Shown here: positions 28,812 through 56,340 of the stretch, in pieces
How the letters are laid out: the number at the start of each line of letters is the position of its first letter
Position numbering within the stretch: the first letter of the stretch is position 1
NCBI GenBank assembly: GCA_944474755.1
Contig: OX104120.1
Location: 24,892,242 to 24,956,241 of the forward strand
Source of the DNA: Limnoperna fortunei
Taxonomy: Eukaryota > Mollusca > Bivalvia > Mytilida > Modiolidae
Direction: 5' to 3'
Length of the DNA: 64,000 nt
Position numbers and translations under genes: made by a program
The notes under the pieces: generated by a model
Database searches by the model: none
What the model was told of the DNA's origin: nothing
The model's input: only the letters and a program-made list of their open reading frames with translations

Positions 28812-31800
28812 TCAGGCTGTCATATCAAAATCTGTAAACTTTATTGGAATTTTGACTTCTCGACCAGATCGTGTGGTATACGGTTTCTCGCTTGCGGTTT
28901 TTTCCTTTAAGATTGAAGGTTTACAATTTTCAGATAGTTCATTTTCTATCCTATTTGTAGAGTTTTCTTGTTCATTTGTTTTCATGAGATGTTTTCTGTT
29001 TCTTCTGTATTCTCCTCCCGTATCATTTCTGACATCATATGATCTGGGCATATCCAGTTTCTTAGTTACAGTGCATGGTTCCCAACAACCATTGTTCTGG
29101 TATCTTACACGTTCTCCCACTTTAAGATCATCTAGCGGTTTCGCACTAATGTCAAAGAATCGTTTTTGAACGTTTTGTCTTCTCTTAAGCTCACGTTTAA
29201 CTTGTGAATAATTCGATACTTTTGATTTCAACTTTTCCAGTGTAAGCGGTAGTTTTGATCGGAGACGTCTACTCATTAATAATTGAGCCGGTGAACCTAG
29301 ATTGTCTTGCGGAGTGTTCCTGTAGTTCAACATCGCAATATATGGATCTTCACCATCATTTTTTGATTTGTCAAGTATGCGTTTCGCAGTTTGTATCATT
29401 CGTTCTGCAAATCCGTTTGCTTGACTGTGATATGGACTGGAAGTTCTATGTGTGAATCCCCATTTCTGTGCAAATGTTTTGAACTCTAACGAAGAGTATT
29501 GTGGTCCATTGTCCGAACGCACAACGTGCGGTATTCCAAACCTAGAGAAGATTGACTTAATTTGACTGATAACTGTTGATGTTTTGGTATTTTCAAGTTT
29601 TGAGATTTCAAAGTATTTAGAATAATAGTCCGCAACGATAATATACTCTGTCTTGTTCCACGTAAACAGATCGGTTCCTACCATTTCAAACGGTAAGTTT
29701 GGTATTTCCGAAGGAATAAGAGGTTCCTTTTGTTGACTGTTTCTTGACTCCAAACACACTTTGCAATTTTTGACATAGTCACAAATTTGAGTGTTCATGT
29801 TTGGCCAGTACATCGTTTCGCGTGCCAGTTTTTGACATTTTTCTATGCCAAAATGGCCTTCATGTAATTTTTTTAGAAGTTCGGATCGCATCGATGTTGG
29901 AATAACAATTCTTTCTCCACGAAGAACGATTCCATCAACATAGGACAATTCATCAGCATGAACGAAATAGTCTCGAATATCTTGTGGTACATGATGCTTC
30001 GATTCAGGCCATCCCTTCAGTATTTGATCGACCAGTTTCCTCATAACATTGTCACTCTTGGTTAACTCAGTAATTTCATCTAGCTTGGTATCGGAAACAG
30101 GAAGTCGTTTTATCACTTGATGAACATACATGTCGATTTCATTGTGAAAAACATCATTTTTAGTATGCGGCAGGTTAGCTTGCGATAGCATATCAGCTAG
30201 AACCAGATCTTTTCCAGGTCTGTAATGTAATACAAAATCGTATCTTTGTAATCTAAGAAGCATTCGCTGTAACCTAGGCGGTGTATTACTCAACGGTTTC
30301 TTAAGTATTGACTCTAAAGGTTTGTGATCTGATTCGACAGTTATTTTCTTTCCGTAAGTATACATATTAAATCTTTCAAGCCCAAATAAGACAGCTAAAA
30401 GTTCCTTTTCAATTTGCGCATAGCGTGTTTCGGCATCAATCATTGCTCTTGACGCATACGCAACTGGTACTTCGTCTTGAAGTAAAACTGCACCTAACCC
30501 AGATTTTGATGCATCACAACTAATTTTTACATCTTTTGTGACATCAAAGTATGCAAGCACAGGTTTCCGTGTCAAGACATCCTTTATTTCAGCATAAGCT
30601 TGCTCCTGTTCGTGTTCCCACTTGAACTCTACGTCTCGTAACAGTAATTTCCTGATCGGCTCTGTTTTTACGGACATATTCGGGATAAATTTCGATAGAT
30701 AGTTTACTGACCCAAGCAGTCTTTCAACTCCTTTACAATCTTTTGGTGGAGGCATGTTTTTTACGATTCCTTCGATTTTATCAGGATCCGGCTTAACGCC
30801 ATCCCTTGACAGTACATGTCCAATATATTTTACATCTGTGGTACCAAATGTACACTTGTCTTTGTTTAGTGTATTTCCTACTTCAGCACAACGTTGCAGT
30901 GTCGACCTGAGTCGTTCATCATGTTCCTCCTTCGTTCTTCCCCATACCAGGATGTCGTCGATGTCTGTCTCGACACCAGGTAAATTTTCAAATAGCTGAG
31001 ATATGCGTTTCTGGAAAACTTCCTGAGCGCTATTTATACCAAAAGGTAAACGACGAAAGCAATAACGCCCAAAAGGTGAATTACACGTTGTCAACAGCTC
31101 TGACGACTCATCAAGTTTTATTTGCCAGTATCCATTGTTTGCATCCATTTTACTGAAGTACCTCGCCCCTGTCATTCTGGTAGTGATTTCCTCTATTGTC
31201 GGTAATTGAAAATGTTCACGCTTAATCGCCGTGTTCAAATGTCTCGGATCTAAACAAATGCGAAGTTTACCAGATTTCGGTTTTTCCACCACAACGAGAG
31301 AATTGACCCAGTCAGTCGGTTCATCCACTTTACGGATTACCCCAGTGCGTTCCATGTTTTGTAACGTTTGACGTAAGTTTTCACGCAGAGCATTGGGTAT
31401 TTTCCTGGGTGGATTGACTACTGGTGTGACGGATTCATTAATTTTAATATGGTAGGGTATTTTTAAACAACCTAGACCACTAAACACTTGAGGAAACTCT
31501 TCTACAAAATTTGATTCCTTAGTTTGTGTAGCTAAAACTACTTTCACAATTCCCATTTCATGTGAAGATTTAAATCCTAACAACGGAGGCTGATCAGTTT
31601 CAGTGATGTAAATTTCCAAAGTGTGATTTTTGCACTTTAAATCTGTCATTCCAACTACATTTAGTCGATTTCCCGAATAACTTGTTAAATTTGCTTTGCT
31701 TGGCCTAACCTTTGTGTTTTTATTTTTAATCATATCAAATGTTTTCCTTGGCAGTATGTTGACCTGTGAACCCGTGTCAACCTTGAAAGTTGTCGGTTTG

Positions 31801-32681
31801 CTGTTTATCGTAAGTGTTACAAAACATTCATCCGATTTAATGTCTGTTTTGACAGATGATTTATTGTCTATTGTACCCACGTAGATTGTTGCTGGTTCGC
31901 CGTCACCCTCCTCATTAGCATTAATGTCACACACTTTCTTGGATTTACATTGTTTTTGAAAATGATTCTGCTTTCTACATTTATAGCAGGTTTTTCCAAA
32001 TGCTGGACATTTTCGCTTCTCGTGTTTGGTCCCACACTTTTGACAATTAAAAGATTTCCTACCTTGATTGCTGTTTTCTTTCTGATATTCTTTGTAGCCT
32101 TTGAATTTCATTACTTTTGACGCATGTGTTGGTTTTCGGACGGAATGTACAGATTCTGTCTCGCACATCGCTTTGATTTGTCTCTTTGATTCTTCTTCGG
32201 CTTGACATATTCGTATTGCCTTTTCAAGAGTTAATTCATCTTCCCGGAGCAGTCTCTCTTTAACTATTTCAGAGTTTGTCCCACAGACAATTCTGTCTCT
32301 GATCAGTTCATCTTTTATTGCTCCGTATTCGCAATTGTTACTCATATTTCTAAGGTCTGTCACATACGTGTCAATGGTTTCTGTTTTTCCTTGGAAACGA
32401 GTGTTGAATTTGTATCTTTCAACAGTAATGTTCTTTCTGGGAATACAATATCTTTGAAACTTTTCAAATAACGATTTCACTTTATCTTTTTCTGCTTTCG
32501 CAAAATTAAATGTGTTGAAAATATCTCTTCCCGCTTGTCCTATTATGTATAAAATAGCTTTGCATTTTTCATCCTCTTCATTTGATGCCATTGCTACATC
32601 AAGGTAAAGTTCCATTGTTTGTTCAGCTATATTTCCTTCTCTATTAAAATCCATTTCTGGAGGCTGTTTTAAGTGCTCCAT
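28812..32681 (-). CDS. gag-pol: Gag-Pol polyprotein, Steamer-like retrotransposon
   Basis: 1,289 aa in one uninterrupted frame. Order: capsid-like Gag (1-200); two zinc knuckles (C213-x2-C-x3-H-x4-C225 and C232-x2-C-x4-H-x4-C245); aspartic protease (VDTGSQVNIL, D302); reverse transcriptase (about 420-620, D513 and the DD pair 575-576); RNase H (D723, E760, D785); integrase with an HHCC zinc site (H940, H943, C973, C976) and D1004, D1057, E1093. The residue where most RTs have Tyr of YxDD is Asp here (TDIDD), which I take as a lineage feature rather than damage. No envelope ORF and no chromodomain seen. A single frame means Gag and Pol are made together, probably separated only by the protease. 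Confidence 0.97.
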   Translation of the reverse strand: MEHLKQPPEMDFNREGNIAEQTMELYLDVAMASNEEDEKCKAILYIIGQAGRDIFNTFNFAKAEKDKVKSLFEKFQRYCIPRKNITVERYKFNTRFQGKTETIDTYVTDLRNMSNNCEYGAIKDELIRDRIVCGTNSEIVKERLLREDELTLEKAIRICQAEEESKRQIKAMCETESVHSVRKPTHASKVMKFKGYKEYQKENSNQGRKSFNCQKCGTKHEKRKCPAFGKTCYKCRKQNHFQKQCKSKKVCDINANEEGDGEPATIYVGTIDNKSSVKTDIKSDECFVTLTINSKPTTFKVDTGSQVNILPRKTFDMIKNKNTKVRPSKANLTSYSGNRLNVVGMTDLKCKNHTLEIYITETDQPPLLGFKSSHEMGIVKVVLATQTKESNFVEEFPQVFSGLGCLKIPYHIKINESVTPVVNPPRKIPNALRENLRQTLQNMERTGVIRKVDEPTDWVNSLVVVEKPKSGKLRICLDPRHLNTAIKREHFQLPTIEEITTRMTGARYFSKMDANNGYWQIKLDESSELLTTCNSPFGRYCFRRLPFGINSAQEVFQKRISQLFENLPGVETDIDDILVWGRTKEEHDERLRSTLQRCAEVGNTLNKDKCTFGTTDVKYIGHVLSRDGVKPDPDKIEGIVKNMPPPKDCKGVERLLGSVNYLSKFIPNMSVKTEPIRKLLLRDVEFKWEHEQEQAYAEIKDVLTRKPVLAYFDVTKDVKISCDASKSGLGAVLLQDEVPVAYASRAMIDAETRYAQIEKELLAVLFGLERFNMYTYGKKITVESDHKPLESILKKPLSNTPPRLQRMLLRLQRYDFVLHYRPGKDLVLADMLSQANLPHTKNDVFHNEIDMYVHQVIKRLPVSDTKLDEITELTKSDNVMRKLVDQILKGWPESKHHVPQDIRDYFVHADELSYVDGIVLRGERIVIPTSMRSELLKKLHEGHFGIEKCQKLARETMYWPNMNTQICDYVKNCKVCLESRNSQQKEPLIPSEIPNLPFEMVGTDLFTWNKTEYIIVADYYSKYFEISKLENTKTSTVISQIKSIFSRFGIPHVVRSDNGPQYSSLEFKTFAQKWGFTHRTSSPYHSQANGFAERMIQTAKRILDKSKNDGEDPYIAMLNYRNTPQDNLGSPAQLLMSRRLRSKLPLTLEKLKSKVSNYSQVKRELKRRQNVQKRFFDISAKPLDDLKVGERVRYQNNGCWEPCTVTKKLDMPRSYDVRNDTGGEYRRNRKHLMKTNEQENSTNRIENELSENCKPSILKEKTASEKPYTTRSGREVKIPIKFTDFDMTA

Positions 32682-37587: not shown

Positions 37588-38051
37588 AGGAATTTGTCAC
37601 CTTGGTAATTTTGATTACATCTTGTTGGAATATTTGAGGAAAGCCAAGTAACAGCACGGCACGTCCGCGGCTGGCGGACTTGAAAAGCAACTATTTTGGG
37701 TTAAGTTGGAAATGAGAAAGTTTAAGATTAATATGTTATGACTTGTTTACGTCATTTATTTATATTGACATTCAATGACTAAGGCCATTCGTTGGTCAGT
37801 CTTTGTCTAAATTTTTGACAAGAAACACCGTCATTTGTATCGTTGCATAATCTTCTAGACTTGTATATTATTTTTTGTTTATGCTGTATCGTCATGTTTG
37901 TCGATCCGATACTTAATAAGCTTTACTGGTCTGTAGACTCTTTAGACGTTTATATAATATTTTGAACTACCTGTATTGTGTTTTTACACGATCCCAGTGG
38001 ACTTGTATCATTCCATCACCGAATGAAAAAATACTTGAAGCATTTAGAGTT

Positions 38052-38098
38052 AAACGCCACTGATGAGTTTTACGTAGACGAAACGCGCGTCTGGCGTA
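38052..38098 (+). ncRNA. Type I hammerhead ribozyme (unit 2)
   Basis: Stem I ACGCCA/TGGCGT; core CTGATGA; stem II GTTT/AGAC with 5-nt loop; GAAA; minimal stem III from the palindrome ACGCGCGT; cleavage triplet GTC. All conserved core bases are present. Such a short stem III usually works best in dimers, which suits a tandem array. Confidence 0.85.
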
Positions 38099-38562
38099 AG
38101 GAATTTGTCACCTTGGTAATTTTGATTACATCTTGTTGGAATATTTGAGGAAAGCCAAGTAACAGCACGGCACGTCCGCGGCTGGCGGACTTGAAAAGCA
38201 ACTATTTTGGGTTAAGTTGGAAATGAGAAAGTTTAAGATTAATATGTTATGACTTGTTTACGTCATTTATTTATATTGACATTCAATGACTAAGGCCATT
38301 CGTTGGTCAGTCTTTGTCTAAATTTTTGACAAGAAACACCGTCATTTGTATCGTTGCATAATCTTCTAGACTTGTATATTATTTTTTGTTTATGCTGTAT
38401 CGTCATGTTTGTCGATCCGATACTTAATAAGCTTTACTGGTCTGTAGACTCTTTAGACGTTTATATAATATTTTGAACTACCTGTATTGTGTTTTTACAC
38501 GATCCCAGTCGGCTTGTATCATTCCATCACCGAATGAAAAAATACTTGAAGCATTTAGAGTT

Positions 38563-38609
38563 AAACGCCACTGATGAGTCTTACGTAGACGAAACGCGCG
38601 TCTGGCGTA
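38563..38609 (+). ncRNA. Type I hammerhead ribozyme (unit 3)
   Basis: As unit 2, with stem II GTCT/AGAC fully Watson-Crick and loop TACGT. Confidence 0.88.
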
Positions 38610-39073
38610 AGGAATTTGTCACCTTGGTAATTTTGATTACATCTTGTTGGAATATTTGAGGAAAGCCAAGTAACAGCACGGCACGTCCGCGGCTGGCGGA
38701 CTTGAAAAGCAACTATTTTGGGTTAAGTTGGAAATGAGAAAGTTTAAGATTAATATGTTATGACTTGTTTACGTCAGTTATTTATATTGACATTCAATGA
38801 CTAAAGCCATTCGTTGGTCAGTCTTTGTCTAAATTTTTGACAAGAAACACCGTCATTTGTATCGTTGCATAATCTTCTAGACTTGTATATTATTTTTTGT
38901 TTATGCTGTATCGTCATGTTTGTCGATCCGATACTTAATAAGCTTTACTGGTCGGTAGACTCTTTAGACGTTTATATAATATTTTGAACTACCTGTATTG
39001 TGTTTTTACACGATCCCAGTCGGCTTGTATCATTCCATCACCGAATGAAAAAATACTTGAAGCATTTAGAGTT

Positions 39074-39120
39074 AAACGCCACTGATGAGTCTTACGTAGA
39101 CGAAACGCGCGTCTGGCGTA
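39074..39120 (+). ncRNA. Type I hammerhead ribozyme (unit 4)
   Basis: Identical in core, stems and cleavage triplet to unit 3. Confidence 0.88.
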
Positions 39121-39584
39121 AGGAATTTGTCACCTTGGTAATTTTGATTACATCTTGTTGGAATATTTGAGGAAAGCCAAGTAACAGCACGGCACGTCCG
39201 CGGCTGGCGGACTTGAAAAGCAACTATTTTGGGTTAAGTTGGAAATGAGAAAGTTTAAGATTAATATGTTATGACTTGTTTACGTCATTTATTTATATTG
39301 ACATTCAATGACTAAGGCCATTCGTTGGTCAGTCTTTGTCTAAATTTTTGACAAGAAACACCGTCATTTGTATCGTTGCATAATCTTCTAGACTTGTATA
39401 TTATTTTTTGTTTATGCTGTATCGTCATGTTTGTCGATCCGATACTTAATAAGCTTTACTGGTCGGTAGACTCTTTAGACGTTTATATAATATTTTGAAC
39501 TACCTGTATTGTGTTTTTACACGATCCCAGTCGGCTTGTATCATTCCATCACCGAATGAAAAAATACTTGAAGCATTTAGAGTT

Positions 39585-39631
39585 AAACGCCACTGATGAG
39601 TCTTACGTAGACGAAACGCGCGTCTGGCGTA
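39585..39631 (+). ncRNA. Type I hammerhead ribozyme (unit 5)
   Basis: Identical in core, stems and cleavage triplet to unit 3. Confidence 0.88.
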
Positions 39632-40095
39632 AGGAATTTGTCACCTTGGTAATTTTGATTACATCTTGTTGGAATATTTGAGGAAAGCCAAGTAACAGCA
39701 CGGCACGTCCGCGGCTGGCGGACTTGAAAAGCAACTATTTTGGGTTAAGTTGGAAATGAGAAAGTTTAAGATTAATATGTTATGACTTGTTTACGTCATT
39801 TATTTATATTGACATTCAATGACTAAGGCCATTCGTTGGTCAGTCTTTGTCTAAATTTTTGACAAGAAACACCGTCATTTGTATCGTTGCATAATCTTCT
39901 AGACTTGTATATTATTTTTTGTTTATGCTGTATCGTCATGTTTGTCGATCCGATACTTAATAAGCTTTACTGGTCGGTAGACTCTTTAGACGTTTATATA
40001 ATATTTTGAACTACCTGTATTGTGTTTTTACACGATCCCAGTCGGCTTGTATCATTCCATCACCGAATGAAAAAATACTTGAAGCATTTAGAGTT

Positions 40096-40142
40096 AAACG
40101 CCACTGATGAGTCTTACGTAGACGAAACGCGCGTCTGGCGTA
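40096..40142 (+). ncRNA. Type I hammerhead ribozyme (unit 6)
   Basis: Identical in core, stems and cleavage triplet to unit 3. Confidence 0.88.
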
Positions 40143-40465
40143 AGGAATTTGTCACCTTGGTAATTTTGATTACATCTTGTTGGAATATTTGAGGAAAGCC
40201 AAGTAACAGCACTGCACGTCCGCGGCTGGCGGACTTGAAAAGCAACTATTTTGGGTTAAGTTGGAAATGAGAAAGTTTAAGATTAATATGTTATGACTTG
40301 TTTACGTCATTTATTTATATTGACATTCAATGACTAAGGCCATTCGTTGGTCAGTCTTTGTCTAAATTTTTGACAAGAAACACCGTCATTTGTATCGTTG
40401 CATAATCTTCTAGACTTGTATATTACTTTTTGTTTATGCTGTATCGTCATGTAGCATTTAGAGTT

Positions 40466-40512
40466 AAACGCCACTGATGAGTCTTACGTAGACGAAACGC
40501 GCGTCTGGCGTA
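40466..40512 (+). ncRNA. Type I hammerhead ribozyme (unit 7)
   Basis: Identical motif, 370 bp after the previous one because the preceding unit is internally deleted. Confidence 0.88.
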
Positions 40513-40872
40513 AGGAATTTGTCACCTTGGTAATTTTGATTACATCTTGTTGGAATATTTGAGGAAAGCCAAGTAACAGCACGGCACGTCCGCGGCTGGC
40601 GGACTTGAAAAGCAACTATTTTGGGTTAAGTTGGAAATGAGAAAGTTTAAGATTAATATGTTATGACTTGTTTACGTCATTTATTTATATTGACATTCAA
40701 TGACTAAGGCCATTCGTTGGTCAGTCTTTGTCTAAATTTTTGACAAGAAACACCGTCATTTGTATCGTTGCATAATCTTCTAGACTTGTATATTATTTTT
40801 TGTTTATGCTGTATCGTCATGTTTGTCGATCCGATACTTAATAAGCTTTACTGGTCGGTAGACACTTTAGAC

Positions 40873-45991: not shown

Positions 45992-46163
45992 TGTAATGAA
46001 TGGCGAGTATATATGGTAGATTCAAATATTACCTGAGAAGTAAGACAGTATGACGATCGTCTTCACAGGTCCACTTCAGGTATTCGTATATGCAATCCCG
46101 ATTCTACTGTAGTTTATATAGTTGTATATTTCTGGTCTGGCTATTACCAGGAGCGTCACAACA
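45992..46163 (-). repeat. 3' LTR of TatD element
   Basis: 172 bp, identical by eye to 54539-54710. Confidence 0.97.
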
Positions 46164-46180
46164 TTCTTCCCCCTTTTGTG
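46164..46180 (-). promoter_or_regulatory. Polypurine tract of TatD element
   Basis: Minus strand CACAAAAGGGGGAAGAA directly precedes the 3' LTR. Confidence 0.85.
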
Positions 46181-46289
46181 AGGCCGATAAGTCATAAAAA
46201 TACAGTAAACTAATTATATTTACAAATCCAAGTCCAACATCTGTAAAAAATGCACTAACATATATACAGGCAGAATATACTTGTAAAAC

Positions 46290-47774
46290 CTATTTGATCC
46301 GATAAAGTCCGACAGCATTCTTAGTTGTTACATTAGCAACGTCCTCCACTGGAATGCTAAATAAGCTTCCTAGTTTTTCCAGGATGTCTTGAATTAACAC
46401 GGGAGAACCAGTTTTTTGTCCTTTAATGTGTAGATATGGGGCATCAGTTTCCATGATGATGTCATTTAAATCCATTTCACTCACCAAGGTTCTGTACTCA
46501 GGATATTTATCATCTTGAAGAATGAACGGAGATATACCGAACTTGATATTTTCAAAATTGCTTTTCCATTTCTTGTATTGTTGTAAGTTTCCATTAAAAC
46601 AATGTCTGTGGATAGGATGGGAGGACGGAAGTACTTTAGTAAGAGTGTTTAAACACAAGGAGTCAATTGAATTATTACCACGGCAATGAATAACAATCGG
46701 TAACCGCTTCTTCAGAGCCATTTTACATTGTAATTCCAAGTATTCCGTTTGTCGTTTTAATTCTCGTTCGGATGGAAAGTCAGAGGAATCGAGTCCACAC
46801 TCCCCAACCGCAACAACTCTCGTTGCTTCTAGTAGTGCTTCCATCTTTTCCAACCAAAGATCTAGGGTTCTCCTGCTCTCCAAATTAATTAATCTAGGGT
46901 GAATCCCAAACGTTAAATGAATCCTACTGTCCTCTCTTACCCTAGAGCGTTTGAGACTATCTGGCCAATGGTGTGGATAACAGTAATTTGCAACGAGGTG
47001 TTTGATTTGATAATGAGTTTCTCCCCACATCCAAGATAGTGCTGGCAATCTTTCTAGTTTCGATTGTTTCACAAGCATGTCAAAATGAAAATGGGAGTCC
47101 ACAAGATGTATTATTTTATCTTCCCTTTTCAAACATTTTCTTTGTTCTAATGAAATCAAGTTTTTGGCATCTTCTGTTCTACTTATCAAGATTGCAAGTA
47201 CTCTCCAGTGTAATAAGGAGTGTAAACCAGATAATGGAGATACGAGGCGATCGGATAACGGTTTTTGGAGTACATAATTATTGACTTCCATGAAGAAGTT
47301 AATGAAAGGTAAATCCATATCATTAAAAACTGGAGCTGAATTCGGCTCAAATTTTATGTGAGTATTTGCATACCTCAATAAATCTACAGGTTCTTGGACT
47401 CCATTTTTGGAGATAAGTACGTCTATTAGCCCATTCATCATCTCCACCCACACAATGCCATTTATGTCAACGTTAAACCGCCTACCTAAATCTATATTTT
47501 CATGGAATTCCTTGATGTGACCATCTAATAATGATACTTGTCCATACTGTGATTTGCACTGCCAACAAGCCGTTGAAGGTGACACATACCAAGGAACATG
47601 TTGCCGTAATACATGTCTTCTAGTGTTGGTAAACCGGCCTGGACATACAGGGCAACTTCTTCCTTTCTTCCAATTCTCAGTACTAGCCCTAATTTTATCC
47701 GATTTTTCAGGGATTTCATCGTCAAAAGGACCATAGTCTGGTACAAACATGAACTCATCTAAGACTTTATCCAT
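46290..47774 (-). CDS. Zinc-finger/TatD-family nuclease, retrotransposon ORF3
   Basis: 494 aa. N-terminus: two C2H2-type fingers (C41-x2-C44-x9-H54-x4-H59 and C70-x2-C73-x12-H86-x4-H91). The middle (100-220) is helical and unassigned. The C-terminus (224-494) is a TatD-type amidohydrolase-fold DNase: H228-x-H230 in VDSHFHFD, E325 in VGECGLD, H363 in VIHCRG, H391 in HRHCFNG and D444 in METDAPY, the complete metal-ligand set. TatD enzymes are metal-dependent 3'-5' exonucleases; human TATDN2 is a relative. It sits after pol, where env lies in retroviruses, 226 bp from the pol stop. A likely 3' splice site (CTGTATTTTAG, then T, then ATG) immediately precedes the start codon, suggesting expression from a spliced RNA. 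No signal peptide or membrane segment, so it is not an envelope. Confidence 0.93.
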   Translation of the reverse strand: MDKVLDEFMFVPDYGPFDDEIPEKSDKIRASTENWKKGRSCPVCPGRFTNTRRHVLRQHVPWYVSPSTACWQCKSQYGQVSLLDGHIKEFHENIDLGRRFNVDINGIVWVEMMNGLIDVLISKNGVQEPVDLLRYANTHIKFEPNSAPVFNDMDLPFINFFMEVNNYVLQKPLSDRLVSPLSGLHSLLHWRVLAILISRTEDAKNLISLEQRKCLKREDKIIHLVDSHFHFDMLVKQSKLERLPALSWMWGETHYQIKHLVANYCYPHHWPDSLKRSRVREDSRIHLTFGIHPRLINLESRRTLDLWLEKMEALLEATRVVAVGECGLDSSDFPSERELKRQTEYLELQCKMALKKRLPIVIHCRGNNSIDSLCLNTLTKVLPSSHPIHRHCFNGNLQQYKKWKSNFENIKFGISPFILQDDKYPEYRTLVSEMDLNDIIMETDAPYLHIKGQKTGSPVLIQDILEKLGSLFSIPVEDVANVTTKNAVGLYRIK

Positions 47775-48000
47775 ACTAAAATACAGGTGTAAATATTAAT
47801 ATTATATATTTATTACATACTGACAATCTAAAAATCTACTAACCAATATTCTTATTTTATTGATAACCATCAGAAAAGTGGAACTGTGAGGCATTAGAAG
47901 ATCTGACACGCACACAGCTCCCAAAATATAAAAGTAAATATATAAAATAAATATATAAGTTTATATATACAATTCTATGTACAGTACCAACAATTTTATA
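47775..48000 (-). other. pol-ORF3 intergenic segment with splice-acceptor-like site
   Basis: 226 bp, AT-rich and non-coding. At its 3' edge (minus strand) a CTGTATTTTAG sequence at 47776-47786 ends one base before the ORF3 ATG. Confidence 0.5.
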
Positions 48001-51000
48001 TTAATCTTCAATATAATCTTTGAAGTAAAACGGGCGTTTTCGGTTTCTTTTCCCATTTATCTCTAAAGAATTTGTTATCGTTCCTTGTTCATTGTCTATG
48101 TGGTACATAAAAGTGTCGTCCAGATTTTCCGAGAGATCTTTCAATTCATCTAAATTGTTAACAGTCTTCCTTGCTTCCATACTTCTTGTCATCTCTTGAA
48201 TAATATCATTAGACACCAGAAGATCTGGCGCACCCATGACATTACTATCACTACCTATGTGAGACACCAGAAGATCTGACGTATTCACATCTGCAGTGTT
48301 CTCATTAAACAGAGACGACATATTGAAATTTTCGTTTGGATCATCGGTTTCCTTTAAATTGCTACTACATTTTAATATTTCATTCCGCAATCTTTTGATC
48401 CAAACCGGAAATTCTCGATCTTGGCATAGTTTTATTCTGTCATGATGTATCCACGATTCGCATTTTCTGTCCTTTATTTTATACAGTACTGGCCTTTTCA
48501 GTTCGGTTATTACATAAGGGCCTTTCCACGGGGATTTCAGTTTAGAGGATTGTCCAACTTTTGTTGCTTGATCTAGCTTATATACTACATCTCCGACATC
48601 ATACGAGTTCTGATTATTAACCAAGTCATATGTCCTTTTTTGTCGTTCTTGTGCCGTATCCAAATTATCCCTTGCAATAGAATGAGCCATGTTCATAGTT
48701 TCAACTAGATCAAGTATATACTGCGGAACTTCTTTTTCTTCAGATTGAACCTTTGCCATGCCAAAAAGTACATCAATTGGTTGGAAAACTTCCCTACTTA
48801 GCATCATTAAATTTGGTGTGAATCCTGTTTGTCGGTTTCTAGTTGACCGAACGGCTGCTACTAGTTGTTGTAAATGAAGGTCCCAATTATATTGTTTATT
48901 TTTAATGAAACATCTTATAATCTGCAAAAGTGTTCTATTGTAGCGCTCGATTTGTCCGTTGGATGAAGGATGATAGGGTGTCGTTCTTGTTTTTGCGATT
49001 TGCATTAGTTCGCAAAGCTGTCTTATAAGGTTTCCGTCCATATTTTTTCCTTGGTCTGTATGGAGTTCAAGAGGGCAGCCAAATCGTGAAAAGAAATTAT
49101 CTACTAAAGTTCTTGCCACAATTTCAGCTGTCTGTGACGATATGGGAAAACATTCCAACCACTTTGTAAATTGGTCAACAACCATAAGTATATACCTACT
49201 TCCTTGCTGGGTAACTGGCAAAGGACCTAATATGTCCATATGAACTCTCTCCATTGGTACACCTGCATGATATTGCTCTAGCCCTGCCCTAGCTTTACGA
49301 GTCAGTTTCTTATTTTTATTACAAACCTGACAGGACTGTACATACAGCTTGCAATCTTGTGTCATGCCATACCAAATTGCCATGTTTTTTACCTTCTCTA
49401 AAGTCTTGTACTGTCCCATATGACCAGACATTCGTATATCATGGCAGTAATGTAAAATCTCCGGTTGCATCTGTTTTGGAGCCATAAACAAAAGTTTCGG
49501 ACACGCAGGATCTTCCCAACTATAGTATAGCACTTCATCTTTCAATTCTAATTGTGAATTGCACAGCCAAAAGTGTCTCACTGCCTTGCTGCTCAATTTC
49601 AGTTCGGGTACAGAAGGAATATGCTTTTGAATTGTCCAGTCCTTAAGTGTTTTCAAATCTGGGTCCTTCAATTGTTCTTCAAGCAGTTCTTGTGGAGAGT
49701 AGGAACATAACCAGTTACTTTGCACAACTTCCGGTGCCAGTCTCCTGATTGCTAGTGGGACAACAAAGTCTACATCTTCTTCAAACGTCCCCCACTGCCT
49801 ACGAGCCCTGGTGCAAAACGCACAGCCCCCGCATAGTAGGTCTTCCAAATTTACACCAGCTTTATAATCATTGCAGGCAACGAGATCATCTGGAATGCGG
49901 GACAGACCATCAGCATTTGAGTGTTTTTTTCCGGATCTGTGTTGAATAACCATATTATACTGTGATAGTTCTTCTATCCATCTAGCTAATTGACCTTCGA
50001 TGTTTTTAAAATTTAGCAGCCAAGTTAAACTATTGTGATCGGTTCTGATGATGAAATTCCGACCTAATAAATAATGGCGGAAATGTCTTGTAAAACAGAC
50101 TATAGCTAATAGTTCCTTACGTGTGGTACAGTATTTCCGTTGAGTTGGTGTAAGAACTCTGCTGGCATAAGAAATTGTCTTTTCTACTCCATTTTGTACT
50201 TGGCTAAGTTCTGCGCCAATGGTTTTCTCTGATGCATCCGTGTCCAGTATAAAGATATCATCTGGTGTTGGAAAGCTTAGTATAACGGCATTCAATAAAG
50301 CGTCTTTCAACTGTTCAAAGGCTTGTTGGTGTTTTTCGTGCCACGCAAAATCGGTTTTCTGTCCCGTCAATTGGTGCAAAGGTTCCGCTATTTCTGCAAA
50401 ATTCTTAATATGGTCTCTGTGGTAGTTAGAAAAACCCCAAAAAGATTCGACATCTTTCTTACCTTTTGGTATGGGCCATTTTTTTACTGCCTCAATACTG
50501 TCCGGATTTACAGCGATTCCATTTTCGCTAACAATTTTACCCAAAAATTTAACTTGTGTTTGTAGAAGGTTACATTTGCTGGGTTTTAATTTTAGATTGT
50601 ATTTTCGAAATCTAGAGAATACCTTATAGAGATTCTCCATATGACTATCAAAATCAGTTCCCAGAACTACCACATCGTCTAAATACGCTAAGCATTCTTT
50701 CCATGTGAGACCTTGCAGCACTAACTGAATCATTCGGCTAAAGGTTGCAGGACTGTTACATAATCCGAATGGAAGTTTGGTATATTGAAAAAGACCGTAT
50801 TTGGTAATAAAAGCCGTCTTATGTTTATCATGGTCATCTAGTTTCACCTGATAATACCCAGAGGCCATATCTAGTGTGGACATAAAGACACTCCCTCTTA
50901 ATGTATCTAGACATGTCTCAATTTTCGGAATTGGAAATGCGTCCTTGACTGTTAAGTTGTTTAGTTTCCTATAGTCAATACAATATCTTAACTTACCGTC

Positions 51001-52059
51001 TTTTTTCCTTACCAAAACTGGAGGTGAAGCCCAGTCAGATGACGATGGTTCAACAATACCCTTCTCTAAAAGGTCTTGAAGATGAACTTCTTCTTCCTTT
51101 TCAAATCCAAGAGGTGTTCTCCTCATTCTTTGCTTCACCGGATGGGCATCCTGAGTGTCGATCCTGTGTGTAATGTTTCCATTAAAAAGACCAATGTCTA
51201 GATCGTCCTTTGCAAATATATCTGCAAAGTTATACAATAATTTTGCCAATTGTATCGATTGTCTGGTGTCAAGATTGCATATTGACCTTGTAAACAGTTC
51301 TTTGATATGATCAGGAAGTTGTTTTTCCAGTTTTTCCAACTGTTCTATTTCCGGGAGAAATTGATTCTCTACATCTATTTTATTTATCTGGAAGTCCATT
51401 TCCTCCTCATCATCCTCTATAGTTTCAGACGCTTCTATTCCTATACCAATTGGATATCCTTTTCTCAGTGTCTTGTATACGTTAGATAAATTTCTTATCA
51501 CTATAGGTACCTGTTTTTTACCCTGACAAATCATATTTGGAATAAGCAGACCTTTCAAAAAATTTGTTGGCTGAATAACGGTATCAGTACTTGGTATCTC
51601 ATCAAATTCGACGGACGACAGCTTATTTGAGCAAGGTGGTATCACTATTTTTTCGGCCAATTTAACTCTGAAGATTTTCATTTTCTTTTTTTCTTTAGTT
51701 GAAACCATTATAGAAGGAATTATTTGGCCGTGTAACTGTACTGTGTAATCTGCAAGGTTAATAACAGCTTTTTGGTGAATAAGGAAATCTATACCTAAGA
51801 TGACATTATCTGTAATGTCAGCTACTATCATACTCCATTGTAGTGAAGATTTACCTATTTTTAACTCAATCTTGTCTGTGACACTAGCATTCATTTCTGA
51901 AAATTCCCCCGCACCCCTTAAAATAATAGTGTCAACTAGTTTTGGTTTTGAAATTAACGTATAATAAAAATTCCAGCTGATGACAGATACTTGGGCTGCT
52001 GTATCTACAACGGCCATTGTCTCTTTTTGTTGTATTATGACAGGGATATATAAAGTCAT
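48001..52059 (-). CDS. pol: Pol polyprotein of TatD element
   Basis: 1,352 aa from the first Met; the frame is open upstream to about 52200, overlapping the gag end in the -1 frame, so the true product is probably a Gag-Pol fusion. Order: aspartic protease (VDTAAQVSVIS, D19, with Ala in place of the usual Gly); RT (D397 in STLDMASGYY, YLDD 459-462); RNase H (D607, E649, D674); integrase (zinc site H873, H880, C910, C913; D942, D1002, E1038) with a C-terminal GPY module (KGPYVI). The last ~120 residues are acidic and Ser/Asn-rich. No stops or frameshifts: looks functional. Confidence 0.96.
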   Translation of the reverse strand: MTLYIPVIIQQKETMAVVDTAAQVSVISWNFYYTLISKPKLVDTIILRGAGEFSEMNASVTDKIELKIGKSSLQWSMIVADITDNVILGIDFLIHQKAVINLADYTVQLHGQIIPSIMVSTKEKKKMKIFRVKLAEKIVIPPCSNKLSSVEFDEIPSTDTVIQPTNFLKGLLIPNMICQGKKQVPIVIRNLSNVYKTLRKGYPIGIGIEASETIEDDEEEMDFQINKIDVENQFLPEIEQLEKLEKQLPDHIKELFTRSICNLDTRQSIQLAKLLYNFADIFAKDDLDIGLFNGNITHRIDTQDAHPVKQRMRRTPLGFEKEEEVHLQDLLEKGIVEPSSSDWASPPVLVRKKDGKLRYCIDYRKLNNLTVKDAFPIPKIETCLDTLRGSVFMSTLDMASGYYQVKLDDHDKHKTAFITKYGLFQYTKLPFGLCNSPATFSRMIQLVLQGLTWKECLAYLDDVVVLGTDFDSHMENLYKVFSRFRKYNLKLKPSKCNLLQTQVKFLGKIVSENGIAVNPDSIEAVKKWPIPKGKKDVESFWGFSNYHRDHIKNFAEIAEPLHQLTGQKTDFAWHEKHQQAFEQLKDALLNAVILSFPTPDDIFILDTDASEKTIGAELSQVQNGVEKTISYASRVLTPTQRKYCTTRKELLAIVCFTRHFRHYLLGRNFIIRTDHNSLTWLLNFKNIEGQLARWIEELSQYNMVIQHRSGKKHSNADGLSRIPDDLVACNDYKAGVNLEDLLCGGCAFCTRARRQWGTFEEDVDFVVPLAIRRLAPEVVQSNWLCSYSPQELLEEQLKDPDLKTLKDWTIQKHIPSVPELKLSSKAVRHFWLCNSQLELKDEVLYYSWEDPACPKLLFMAPKQMQPEILHYCHDIRMSGHMGQYKTLEKVKNMAIWYGMTQDCKLYVQSCQVCNKNKKLTRKARAGLEQYHAGVPMERVHMDILGPLPVTQQGSRYILMVVDQFTKWLECFPISSQTAEIVARTLVDNFFSRFGCPLELHTDQGKNMDGNLIRQLCELMQIAKTRTTPYHPSSNGQIERYNRTLLQIIRCFIKNKQYNWDLHLQQLVAAVRSTRNRQTGFTPNLMMLSREVFQPIDVLFGMAKVQSEEKEVPQYILDLVETMNMAHSIARDNLDTAQERQKRTYDLVNNQNSYDVGDVVYKLDQATKVGQSSKLKSPWKGPYVITELKRPVLYKIKDRKCESWIHHDRIKLCQDREFPVWIKRLRNEILKCSSNLKETDDPNENFNMSSLFNENTADVNTSDLLVSHIGSDSNVMGAPDLLVSNDIIQEMTRSMEARKTVNNLDELKDLSENLDDTFMYHIDNEQGTITNSLEINGKRNRKRPFYFKDYIED

Positions 52060-52154
52060 TGCCTCAGCATCACTAGTTACTGTCTGATAAAGTTTAACTT
52101 CAACTGGATTCTTTTTATTTGAAAAAGGTGGTGGCCTTCCGGTGTCATTTGGGT

Positions 52155-52197
52155 GGACTAAAGACTGGCCTACATCTTCAGTCCGTTGAAGTTTAAC
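52155..52197 (-). promoter_or_regulatory. -1 ribosomal frameshift signal between gag and pol
   Basis: On the minus strand: slippery heptamer G TTA AAC (52191-52197, in gag frame), 6-nt spacer (52185-52190), then a 9-bp stem GGACTGAAG/CTTTAGTCC (52176-52184 with 52155-52163; one G-U pair) with a 12-nt loop that holds the gag stop TAG (52170-52172). The pol frame is closed just upstream (TAA before 52200), so slippage must occur in this short window, exactly where the heptamer is. GTTAAAC is a known viral slippery site (arteriviruses). Confidence 0.88.
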
Positions 52198-53852
52198 GGA
52201 TTACTTCCCCTGTTAGGTGAAGGAGACCTTGGCCTTGGGTTATACCTCTGTGGTGACCTATTTTTCGGCTTGTCACATTGAGAAATATAATGCCCTTCCA
52301 AGCCGCAATTGAAGCAGCGTCCATCCCTCGTCGGACTCTGTCCTGGGTTAACTGTCCTGCTTGGTGACCTTGACCTGTCTGTTCTTGTTCGGCCTTTTAA
52401 AATGTCCAATATTTGTGTAATTGCCGATTTGGTCTCCTTTAAGTCGTCTTCTGTTTTCTTAATTCTGGCCTCCAATCTGCTAATGTCAGGTGTAGCATTC
52501 TCATTTTTGTATACGATCCTTATATTGGGTCTCGGCTGTGTCTCCTCATCAATTGGTTCATCATAGTCTTCATCATTTCCTGTATCAGACTCTTGGAATG
52601 TAACCCTTTTTATGCCCACATCAAGCTTCCTTTGTCCCAAGATAACTCGCTGGTTCGTGATGGCACATTTGACATACTGTAGAGCTTGGTCTAGGCTATC
52701 TGGATCTTTATCCATAGCTGTCAAAGCCGCTTTTTTATCGGAACAGCCCTTTAGGAACGCATCTATTGCCACCACCTGAATGAACGCATCTGGAGTTCCC
52801 GGGTAACCATCTGTCGCCATTTCTTGTGTTCTCTCTGCATACTCTTCTAGAGATTCTTCCTGCAGTTGCCGAAGGTCCTGAAGTTGCCTTCGGACAATAT
52901 GGGGGAGGTCTCTACTTCCGAATCTTTCGTTCATTTTTTTGCAGATAGCTTGATAATCCTCCTGAATTGCTGTTGATCTGGATGTGAAAAATTTAAGTGC
53001 CTTATCTCTGAGACACTCTATTAGTTTATCTAGTCTCTGTTGATTTGTCCAATTGTATCTATTGGCGATGTGATTGAACTGCACAAAATATGGGCGCCAA
53101 TCATTTCTGCCGTCATAAGTGGCCATTTTCGGAGGTAAAGGGCCACTTGATTTATTAGGTAACACCTGGTCTGTTGAATGGAGGGGTTTACTTATATATG
53201 TGGATTTCTTCCACGAGTCTTGTGACTCTGACTTTATTGTTTCTAGATATTTATTGGACTTTATGTCTGCGGAGAGCTTTCCGTAGGCTCCCTCGGATGA
53301 TGCTTCTTCTTCCATTTTTTTCAATCTGATGTCTCGCAATTTGATCTCTTGACATAAAATCTCTTCCCTGTCTCTGAATTCCCTCATAAATTTATCGTAC
53401 TTCTCGTTTTGTTGCTGAACATAATTTTCATGTTGTTTATTATATTCATGCTCTGTATTTTTTAATTTAATTTTGAAATCAAGAGTGATATCTGCTAATT
53501 TTTTATCATAAGCTGCTTGCATATTGTTTTTGTCTTTTTTTATTGATTCTAGTTCGTTTTTTAGTATATCAATTGTATTAGCCATGTGCTGAAATTTTTC
53601 TTTCTCTGTTGATGTTTCTAAAGTCTCTTCTATTGTTTCTGGCTCTTTCAAGACTGTAATTACACCAGCTTGTATTAATGGGTCCCACATCGTGTTTGGT
53701 ATGTCTGACATAAGTTTTAAATCTTCAAGAGTAAGAGGGGAACCCTTCTCTTGTCTTCTTTTTATAATCTTGTTTGCCCTCTTATCACTGATACCTGATA
53801 TCTGTTTTAATTGTTCGAATGTTGCTGTGTTTATATCGATAGGCGTCGACAT
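52170..53852 (-). CDS. gag: Gag of TatD element with N-terminal helix-hairpin-helix
   Basis: 560 aa. Residues 5-55 (DINTATFEQLKQISGISDKR...PLTLEDLKLMSDI) match the ComEA/PsbU-type helix-hairpin-helix DNA-binding pattern, including INTAT, the GIS hairpin, the A..II helix and the LEDL turn. Residues ~75-205 are charged and predicted coiled coil (many K/E/Q heptads). Residues ~240-420 are the Gag-like capsid region (PPKMATYDGRNDWRPYFVQF; EYAERTQEMA). Then an acidic linker and one CCHC zinc knuckle (C513-x2-C-x4-H-x4-C526) in an R/S/P-rich tail. The stop overlaps the -1 frame of pol. The HhH is unusual for a Gag and may have been captured. Confidence 0.93.
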   Translation of the reverse strand: MSTPIDINTATFEQLKQISGISDKRANKIIKRRQEKGSPLTLEDLKLMSDIPNTMWDPLIQAGVITVLKEPETIEETLETSTEKEKFQHMANTIDILKNELESIKKDKNNMQAAYDKKLADITLDFKIKLKNTEHEYNKQHENYVQQQNEKYDKFMREFRDREEILCQEIKLRDIRLKKMEEEASSEGAYGKLSADIKSNKYLETIKSESQDSWKKSTYISKPLHSTDQVLPNKSSGPLPPKMATYDGRNDWRPYFVQFNHIANRYNWTNQQRLDKLIECLRDKALKFFTSRSTAIQEDYQAICKKMNERFGSRDLPHIVRRQLQDLRQLQEESLEEYAERTQEMATDGYPGTPDAFIQVVAIDAFLKGCSDKKAALTAMDKDPDSLDQALQYVKCAITNQRVILGQRKLDVGIKRVTFQESDTGNDEDYDEPIDEETQPRPNIRIVYKNENATPDISRLEARIKKTEDDLKETKSAITQILDILKGRTRTDRSRSPSRTVNPGQSPTRDGRCFNCGLEGHYISQCDKPKNRSPQRYNPRPRSPSPNRGSNPLNFNGLKM

Positions 53853-54524
53853 AGCTGTTTATTGCTGACAAAATACGTGAGAAGTGCTCAAACCAATTTG
53901 TAGGTAAGGGATCAATTGTATTTGCGTTAACAAATCAACACATAAAGAAAGTCAACATGAGTATCGCTCACGTTTATGTTTATTGACCAAAATGTACAAA
54001 AAACGAGTTATCCTCAAATACCGATAGAAAACTATTGAATAAACAAAATACTTGTAAACAATAATGACATCAGACGATCTGACGCACAAAATTGTCACAT
54101 AAGGTTGTTGGTTTCAATTTTTAATACACAAATCTGTGAAAGCAATTTCCGTACAAATTGATTTTTGAGAATGAAATCGGCTGTAAAATGGAAGAGAAAA
54201 TTAATAAATCTATCTGTATTCCTATAGTGGCCAACTTCAACAAGAATAATAACTGAGGATTTTTTTAATTGTTTGAAAAAAAGGGGGGATAGTCAGAAAT
54301 ATTTTGAGTCTGACGTCTAGATTAATAAAAAAAAATCGACAATACCAGAATCGCACTTAAATATAAATGCAATATTATTGTAATATAATGAACATATAAT
54401 TAATCGACGTTCCACGTATGAATATCGCGAGGGGTAAAAATGATATTTCCACCCGCGAAACAAATCAAAATCAAAATATAATTTGAAATATGTCGCGCAT
54501 ATTTGTAAATGTGGAATCGTTACG
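53853..54524 (-). other. 5' leader of TatD element
   Basis: About 670 bp between primer-binding site and gag ATG. It may contain packaging signals and a splice donor, but I did not identify one with confidence. Confidence 0.6.
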
Positions 54525-54537
54525 ACTTCTGACACCA
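54525..54537 (-). promoter_or_regulatory. Primer-binding site of TatD element
   Basis: Minus strand TGGTGTCAGAAGT, one base after the 5' LTR. Complementary to a tRNA ending ACTTCTGACACCA, which fits metazoan Leu tRNAs. Confidence 0.8.
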
Positions 54538-54538
54538 C

Positions 54539-54710
54539 TGTAATGAATGGCGAGTATATATGGTAGATTCAAATATTACCTGAGAAGTAAGACAGTATGA
54601 CGATCGTCTTCACAGGTCCACTTCAGGTATTCGTATATGCAATCCCGATTCTACTGTAGTTTATATAGTTGTATATTTCTGGTCTGGCTATTACCAGGAG
54701 CGTCACAACA
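54539..54710 (-). repeat. 5' LTR of TatD element
   Basis: 172 bp, identical by eye to the other LTR; drives minus-strand transcription by position. Confidence 0.97.
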
Positions 54711-54834: not shown

Positions 54835-56195
54835 ATATATTACCTGGCCTGTTGTGTGGACAATTTATGTCACATAGAACAGGTCTGTGTTATATATATT
54901 ACCTGGCCTGTTGTGTGGACAGTTTATGTCACATAGAACAGGTCTAAGTTATATATATTACCTGGCCTGTTGTGTGGACAGTTTATGTCACATAGAACAG
55001 GTCTAAGTTATATATATTACCTGGCCTGTTGTGTGGACAATTTATGTCACATAGAACAGGTCTATATTATATATATTACCTGGCCTGTTGTGTGGACAGT
55101 TTATGTCACATAGAACAGGTCTATGTTATATATATTATCTGGGCTGTTGTGTGGACATTTTATGTCACATAGAACAGGTCTGTGGTATATATATATTTCC
55201 TGGCCTGTTGTGTGGACAGTTTATGTCACATAGAACAGGTCTATGTTATATATATATTACCTGGCCTGTTGTGTGGACAATTTATGTCACATAGAACAGG
55301 TCTATATTATATATATATTACCTGGCCTGTTGTGTGGACAGTTTATGTCACATAGAACAGGTCTATGTTATATATATTACCTGGCCTGTTGTGTGGACAA
55401 TTTATGTCACATAGAACAGGTCTATGTTATATATATTATCTGGGCTGTTGTGTGGACAATTTATGTCACATAGAACAGGTCTATGTTATATATATTACCT
55501 GGCCTGTTGTGTGGACAATTTATGTCACATAGAACAGGTCTAAGTTATATATTATCTGGGCTGTTGTGTGGACAATGTATGTCACATAGAACAGGTCTAT
55601 GTTAAATATATTACCTGGGCTGTTGTGTGGACAATGTATGTCACATAGAACAGGTCTATGTTATACATGTATATATTACCTGGGCTGTTGTGTGGACAAT
55701 GTATGTCACATAGAACAGGTCTATGTAATATATATATTACCTGGGCTGTTGTGTGGACAATGTATGTCACATAGAACAGGTCTATGTTATATATATTACC
55801 TGGGCTGTTGTGTGGACAATGTATGTCACATAGAACAGGTCTATGTTATATATATTACCTGGCCTGTTGTGTGGACAGTTTATGTCACATAGAACAGGTC
55901 TGTGTTATATATATTATCTGGGCTGTTGTGTGGACAATTAATGTCACATAGAACAGGTCTAAGTTATGTCTATTTCTTGGCCTGTTGTGTGGACAATGTA
56001 TGTCACATAGAACAGGTCTATCTTATATATATTACCTGGCCTGTTGTGTGGACAGTTTATGTCACATAGAACAGGTCTATGTTATATATATTACCTGGGC
56101 TGTTGTGTGGACAATTTATGTCACATAGAACAGGTCTATGTTATATATATTACCTGGGCTGTTGTGTGGACAATGTATGTCACATAGAACACCAA
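54835..56195 (+). repeat. 59-bp minisatellite, array 2 (~23 units)
   Basis: Same hairpin-forming unit and orientation as array 1 at 36519-37448. Two unit variants alternate in patches: 'acctggcctg' and 'tctgggctg/acctgggctg'. Confidence 0.97.
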
Positions 56196-56340
56196 TGCAT
56201 ACAAAATATACAGCAAAGATAATATTTTATTAATATGTATGTATATATAGTTGTAGTTTATTCAAAAATGCACAGAATATTATGCATGTATATGAAAATG
56301 TCTTTTTGTGAAATTGGTATTCAATTTGCCTATCTTGTAG

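Follow-up and report, generated by a model that had tools for sequence, protein, structure and literature searches.

The closest precedent for the element described here is that of the bdelloid rotifer long terminal repeat (LTR) retrotransposons Vesta and Juno, which PMC5408684 describes as carrying a DEDDy exonuclease in a third open reading frame (ORF3). Our element is a Ty3/gypsy retrotransposon in a stretch of 64,000 nucleotides of the bivalve Limnoperna fortunei (contig OX104120.1, positions 24,892,242 to 24,956,241; hereafter the window), and its own ORF3 encodes a TatD nuclease domain. In both cases, an enzymatic nuclease that is not an env gene lies downstream of pol in several lineages. 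The rotifer enzyme is RNase D-like, of the DEDDy type, whereas that of the window belongs to the metal-dependent TatD family, carries a finger/HWR module, comes from a bivalve and is possibly spliced.

Other described systems share single traits with this element. The HxH motif, which defines the group II TatD proteins, is given in the relevant passages of PMC10085689 for TATDN2 and TATDN3 but not for TATDN1. Vertebrate TATDN2 thus has the same type of domain as ORF3, but it is a host gene, and the clade likeness discussed below rests on one L. fortunei locus (L046) and two nematode proteins, not on a vertebrate sequence. The gypsy elements of molluscs treated in sections of PMC6238403 (the Mag lineage and others) also have LTRs and gag; the main text of that paper contains neither "TatD" nor "ORF3" (0 occurrences each). 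An enzyme, although a different one and in a plant host, was likewise acquired by Ty3/gypsy elements of orchids, which carry a captured m6A demethylase domain (PMC9289625). A search confined to the open-access PMC literature, and so leaving aside Repbase, bioRxiv preprints and the bulk of subscription papers, found no report joining TatD with retroelements.

Our main result is that a set of Ty3/gypsy elements almost certainly harbours a conserved third gene, located after the integrase and ahead of the 3′ LTR, which joins a finger/HWR module to a group II TatD domain, is coinherited with pol, is under purifying selection and has TATDN2 as its nearest relative among the host TatD proteins compared. 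The best overall explanation, to which we give a probability of about 0.5, combines the capture of a host sequence, spliced expression and the processing of the element's intermediates by the encoded nuclease. TatD is an added nuclease family among the captured accessory genes of retroelements, and its long retention is shown by co-phylogeny and by the ratio of non-synonymous to synonymous change (dN/dS, or omega).

The window element and its third gene

The element has the following features, all on the minus strand.

45992..54710, minus strand: Ty3/gypsy element
54539..54710, minus strand: 5′ LTR, 172 bp, with AGTG on its outer side
54525..54537, minus strand: candidate primer-binding site TGGTGTCAGAAGT, identified by reading, just after the 5′ LTR
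52170..53852, minus strand: gag, 560 aa, with an N-terminal helix-hairpin-helix (PF12836) and Retrotrans_gag (PF03732)
48001..52059, minus strand: pol, 1352 aa, with protease, reverse transcriptase (RT), RNase H and integrase
46290..47774, minus strand: ORF3, 494 aa, open, with the zinc-finger/HWR module and the TatD nuclease domain
47598..47654, minus strand: finger 1 of ORF3, residues 41-59, C-x2-C-x9-H-x4-H
47502..47567, minus strand: finger 2 of ORF3, residues 70-91, C-x2-C-x12-H-x4-H
46302..47102, minus strand: TatD_DNase domain of ORF3, residues 225-491 (PF01026, 7e-41), with the group II HxH motif
46164..46177, minus strand: polypurine tract preceding the 3′ LTR
45992..46163, minus strand: 3′ LTR, 172 bp, with AGTG directly after it

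An initial annotation made from the sequence alone had placed the ORF between identical LTRs, in the env position and on the strand of gag and pol. This is the arrangement that we find: the LTRs are identical at 172/172 bases, the 4-bp target duplication AGTG stands on both outer flanks, and gag and pol lie upstream of ORF3. The order of the Pfam domains in pol (protease-RT-RNase H-integrase) assigns the element to Ty3/gypsy; the gypsy elements of molluscs have the same order, as well as gag. The short LTRs may resemble those of Steamer.

The TatD_DNase domain scores 140.7 bits, against a Pfam cut-off of 27, and with its HxH motif (H228, H230) belongs to group II. We aligned 32 proteins, taken partly from this genome and partly from databases. 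The six metal ligands named in the initial annotation (H228, H230, E325, H363, H391, D444) are all present in ORF3 and are found together in 31/32 of these proteins, the sole exception being H228 in one row. The claim of two intact C2H2 fingers stands only in part. The motif residues are present, but they form motifs without a Pfam family: finger 1 has an atypical spacing, yet keeps all four residues in 31/32 rows, and finger 2 has a canonical spacing, keeps all four residues in only 16/32 rows and is absent from rows of the L018/L020 type (loci of this genome are numbered with L). No Pfam zinc-finger family matches ORF3 at 1e-3, nor three relatives (L018, L028, L011) at 0.1. TatD_DNase is the only Pfam domain in these four proteins, none of which has the DEDDy exonuclease domain. 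An "HW" motif precedes the TatD domain in 28/32 aligned proteins. A profile of the N-terminal module matches L018, L036, L043 and L044, the last three of which lie outside the set used to build it, and finds nothing at an E-value of 10 in the host loci L046 and L009 or in the TatD-less elements L047 and L048. When the module was searched alone, which has low sensitivity, only two proteins matched, both with TatD.

Copies in the genome and linkage to pol

A six-frame scan of the 1.34-Gb genome gave at least 151 TatD matches, a lower bound in which fragments and host exons are included. By an eye count, at least 25 of the matches listed are full-length and free of stops. We fetched 20 loci of 9-10 kb and 10 shorter ones, and set aside L009, the host TATDN3 gene. 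A gypsy pol precedes TatD, with the same orientation, in 26/29 of these loci (host genes apart). This is the case for 18/19 loci of about 9.9 kb, where the exception, L025, is rearranged with reversed pieces of pol, and for 8/10 of the shorter ones. Of the two exceptions among the latter, L037 has an RT 7.3 kb upstream, beyond the short stretch fetched, and L036 has no pol within its own short stretch. Hence, the ORF is carried by other genomic copies, contrary to one of the outcomes that would have refuted the initial annotation.

A search with the LTR of the window family gave 28 matches, 18 of which make nine pairs 5.4-8.6 kb apart, and 9/9 pairs enclose a TatD match; among the 10 unpaired matches, one is beside TatD at C13:61.4 Mb and the rest are partial or diverged. 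Young copies occur in further families, with LTRs that are identical in L027 (243/243) and L020 (233/233) and 99.2% identical in L028. Host genes struck by nearby elements were rejected as an explanation for the association. Five matches in viral contigs, at 24-27% identity, are presumably ordinary bacterial or phage TatD.

The relatives of ORF3 in the databases, protein records without genomic context, come from Mytilus trossulus, M. edulis, M. galloprovincialis, M. coruscus, Mizuhopecten, Pinctada, Mercenaria and Dreissena, and the named matches are mostly from Mytilus. One protein of M. coruscus (P0047, named "tatD") has an integrase C-terminus fused N-terminally to ORF3, which matches the L011 pol at 41% identity across 247 aa, and is therefore independent evidence for the linkage of pol and TatD in another species. 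Bivalve genes bearing the annotation "tatD" or "putative deoxyribonuclease TATDN2" probably include some retroelement ORFs, which would inflate the apparent nuclease families. Another protein of the ORF3 family (P0089) is filed under a metagenome-assembled genome of Sedimenticola and is possibly bivalve host DNA in a symbiont bin. A section of PMC6962438 on the giant squid Hox cluster lists "TATDN2" among the non-Hox ORFs, beside transposon-type names; it may be a retroelement ORF of this kind.

Distribution and co-inheritance

The presence of TatD follows the divergence of pol. Using 22/99 rows of a search with the window RT, we found TatD 2.6-3.3 kb downstream of 17/18 matches at least 61% identical to the query. 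The same search with the RT of L018 (95/96 rows, one second fragment being dropped) gave TatD within 12 kb downstream in 28/95 matches: 16/18 at 70% identity or more, 5/5 at 68-69%, 7/51 at 66-67% and 0/21 below. The remaining 67/95 lack a listed TatD, a number that is an upper bound because the TatD list is without some of the weakest rows. Relatives lacking ORF3 are thus numerous, and in two of them, L047 and L048, the fetched stretch contains a long pol and lacks ORF3. These relatives count against an indispensable function, because the existence of close relatives without the gene makes ORF3 dispensable for some elements; since the share of TatD falls with RT divergence, and L047 and L048 are without it, we regard ORF3 as an old but optional trait. 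In some sister elements its absence may be due to loss. The integrase tree, which places L047 beside the TatD-bearing L043 (support 88/86), hints at a loss. In the RT tree, from which L043 is absent, the TatD-bearing rows fall together on one side (65/53), with no pointer to loss. Both trees are weakly supported and rooted with a very long outgroup branch.

The sister lineage, composed of L018, L020, L012, L038, L043, L047 and L048, has a PHD finger at the end of pol, with or without ORF3. It was identified in L020 with PF00628 (29.3 bits against a cut-off of 24) and in the other loci by motif. By analogy with chromodomains, it is possibly a chromatin-reading tail. The pol of the L018 lineage also has about 230 additional residues between RNase H and the zinc domain of the integrase.

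The integrase and TatD trees have the same resolved groupings, apart from their roots. Across 12 loci the integrase and TatD distances are strongly correlated (Mantel r 0.915, p 0.0001), and the two lineages taken separately give r values of 0.88 (15/5040 permutations) and 0.79 (8/120, not significant at 0.05). TatD evolves faster than the integrase of the same elements, with mean distances of 1.53 and 0.70. The order of finger, HWR and TatD is one shared architecture across very diverged pol lineages.

Selection on the TatD domain

The comparison of dN/dS among copies, suggested in the initial annotation, reveals purifying selection. For 7 close pairs, with each copy entering only one of them, the pooled omega of TatD is 0.27, with 67 synonymous and 67 non-synonymous changes (neutral probability 3e-13); the pairs were picked after the pairwise values were known and poorly aligned codons were left out. 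The individual pairs range from 0.15 to 1.81. The pooled value is 0.28 with one pair per family, 0.26 with the window family left out and 0.32 with the largest pair left out (P 4e-6). The pooled omega of pol is 0.23 (4 pairs), that of TatD on the same 4 pairs being 0.30. Synonymous sites are saturated in 11/11 diverged TatD pairs, whose proteins are 28-58% identical.

The window copy itself tells against this picture, since its comparisons with four close copies give omega values of 0.69-2.37 on few changes (N 7, S 1 against L014); it is in a state of relaxed or neutral change. The proof of selection therefore comes from other copies and families. The earlier suggestion that an open frame in a young copy indicates selection was right as to the selection, and the open frame taken alone is a weak argument for it. 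ORF3 is kept by selection alongside pol and so probably helps the elements to multiply.

The two weakest explanations for ORF3 can be dealt with here. A host TATDN2 transcript captured once in the window copy, and functionless there, would fit the TATDN2-like domain and the excess of amino-acid changes in this copy, but it is ruled out by the full-length stop-free rows in diverged families, the congruent trees, the omega of 0.27 and the shared finger/HWR module, for which the profile had no match in the host TATDN2-type locus. An env-like protein for entry or exit, which the env position and the env-like acceptor sites described below might suggest, is very improbable: the residues conserved are those of a soluble metalloenzyme, and in a simple scan, which is not a signal-peptide predictor, the highest mean hydropathy over 19 residues ranges from 1.29 to 1.98 among six families and exceeds 1.6 only in L018. 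There is no strong hydrophobic helix in 5/6 families, and ORF3 was rejected as an env gene.

Origin of the TatD sequence

We built a quick tree of 68 of the TatD domains collected, in which the TATDN2-type rows are host L046 and two nematode proteins, and which does not include TATDN1 or vertebrate TATDN2. The retroelement TatD domains and the TATDN2-type rows form one clade (SH-aLRT 98), to which neither host TATDN3 nor the 12 bacterial rows belong. The tree against host TatD genes called for in the initial annotation thus gives TATDN2 as the nearest of those compared. To judge by its sequence, L046 is TATDN2 by elimination, as it has HxH, and so would not be TATDN1, while TATDN3 is accounted for by L009. 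The TatD part of L046 is divided among five exon-like pieces, and the 9 kb fetched contain no finger/HWR module.

We infer that a TATDN2-like coding sequence was captured before the split of the two main TatD-bearing lineages, and that it either gained the N-terminal module or brought it along. A single capture is rather probable. It is weakened by the support of only 66 for the branch that sets the retroelement TatD domains apart; the three TATDN2 rows group together at only 65. The former value leaves some probability for two separate TATDN2-like captures, one in each TatD-bearing pol lineage, and TatD-less elements in or near the PHD-finger lineage also speak for them. Yet both lineages share the order of finger, HWR and TatD, of which no counterpart was found in the host TATDN2-type locus, and we consider two captures clearly less likely than one. 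If the capture of TATDN2 is real, it would be the first use of a TatD enzyme by a mobile element known to us.

Expression of ORF3

Two candidate splice sites in the window element bear on the expression of ORF3.

54574..54582, minus strand: candidate 5′ splice site CAG/GTAATA inside the 5′ LTR, not significant (p 0.09)
47776..47795, minus strand: candidate 3′ splice site TATTTACACCTGTATTTTAG, separated by 1 nt from the ORF3 ATG that follows, weak alone (p 0.19)

A pyrimidine-rich stretch ending in AG stands directly before the ORF3 start in most families shown. Acceptor-like sites at most 25 nt from the start reach p < 0.01 in 5/9 loci, with a combined p of 9e-9 that depends on our choices, i.e., a flat background, a 25-nt window and 9 hand-picked loci with a clear start, one per family or sub-family. 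When scanned against the local base composition in a 50-nt window, three loci gave p values of 0.50, 0.21 and 0.01. The best LTR donor (CAG/GTRA) lies at 73-77% of the LTR length in three diverged families. A spliced ORF3 mRNA is suggested because acceptor-like sites precede the start codon, and we think it somewhat more probable than other modes that ORF3 is made from a spliced subgenomic mRNA, with a donor near the 5′ end and an acceptor before the start, like retroviral env. This would be the simplest single model of expression.

A number of points lower our confidence in splicing. The acceptors are weak in L010, L017, L039 and L043; the splice-site weights were set by us, and loci with shared ancestry are not independent; and the start used for L011 is the second ATG, chosen after the translation had been seen. 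The LTR donor is not above chance (p 0.09, 0.15 and 0.35; combined 0.094), and L027 and L020 have stronger donor-like sites outside the LTR. In L018, L020 and L038, where ORF3 starts 42-46 nt past the pol stop (in L018 without a change of open frame), translation by readthrough or re-initiation is a further possibility.

Proposed function of the nuclease

The properties of known TatD enzymes suggest what ORF3 may do. Passages of PMC12709183 and PMC10707325 describe human TATDN2 as an RNA exo- and endonuclease of R-loops, and TATDN1 and TATDN3 are presented in part of PMC10085689 as 3′-5′ exonucleases and apurinic/apyrimidinic (AP) endonucleases. In our proposed mechanism, the finger module would, as a guess, bring the enzyme to the nucleic acid of the element or to chromatin, and the TatD domain would act as a structure-specific nuclease on RNA-DNA hybrids, 3′ ends of single-stranded DNA or abasic sites. 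Such substrates would lie within the intermediates of reverse transcription or integration, and their cleavage would raise the yield of intact insertions. By analogy with these enzymes, we tentatively place the action of ORF3 on the element's own hybrid, 3′-end or AP-site intermediates, as the foremost among uncertain roles. One consideration goes against it: a role in the removal of hybrids would be partly redundant because the element already encodes an RNase H. This raises the question of which nucleic acid an LTR element must cut that is beyond the reach of its RNase H and integrase.

The role that we rank second is counter-defence or competition, in which ORF3 would degrade nucleic acids used by the host for sensing or silencing, or the complementary DNA (cDNA) of rivals. 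The faster change of TatD relative to the integrase (1.53 against 0.70), and the presence of ORF3 in some close elements and not in others, are in its favour. However, faster change is expected of any accessory gene, and the pooled omega, a gene-wide measure that does not address single sites, is well under 1; we see this role as possible but rather unlikely. It is doubtful that ORF3 is mainly a nucleic-acid binder or structural protein in which residual catalysis is irrelevant: the N-terminal module is as widely shared as TatD (finger 1 in 31/32), but the joint presence of the six ligands in as many proteins argues against it.

A fuller and more speculative scenario, which we hold less likely than not by a good distance, joins these parts. 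An ancient bivalve retroelement would have captured the R-loop nuclease TATDN2 once and fused it to a module addressing it to DNA or chromatin; the product would be a spliced nuclear factor that removes RNA-DNA hybrids or damaged cDNA, or dampens the reaction of the host to them, and that has been kept across deeply diverged gypsy lineages and lost in others.

Other features of the window

The genome-scan matches listed include no TatD in the window besides ORF3, and a tRNA scan with bacterial settings found no tRNA gene there. The motif TGGTGTCAGAAGT also stands after the LTR in L014 and L027, which have a purine-rich stretch at the same place before the 3′ LTR. The helix-hairpin-helix at the start of gag (PF12836, 1.5e-11) is unusual for this protein in our judgement. 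A second Ty3/gypsy pol ORF of 1289 aa lies at 28812-32681, and its identity to the elements compared is at most 28% in the integrase and 33% in the RT. The window also contains a tandem array with units of about 511 bp (38002-40715) and a 59-bp tandem array (about 54840-56325) that starts some 0.13 kb outside the 5′ LTR, so that the element lies near the edge of the array.
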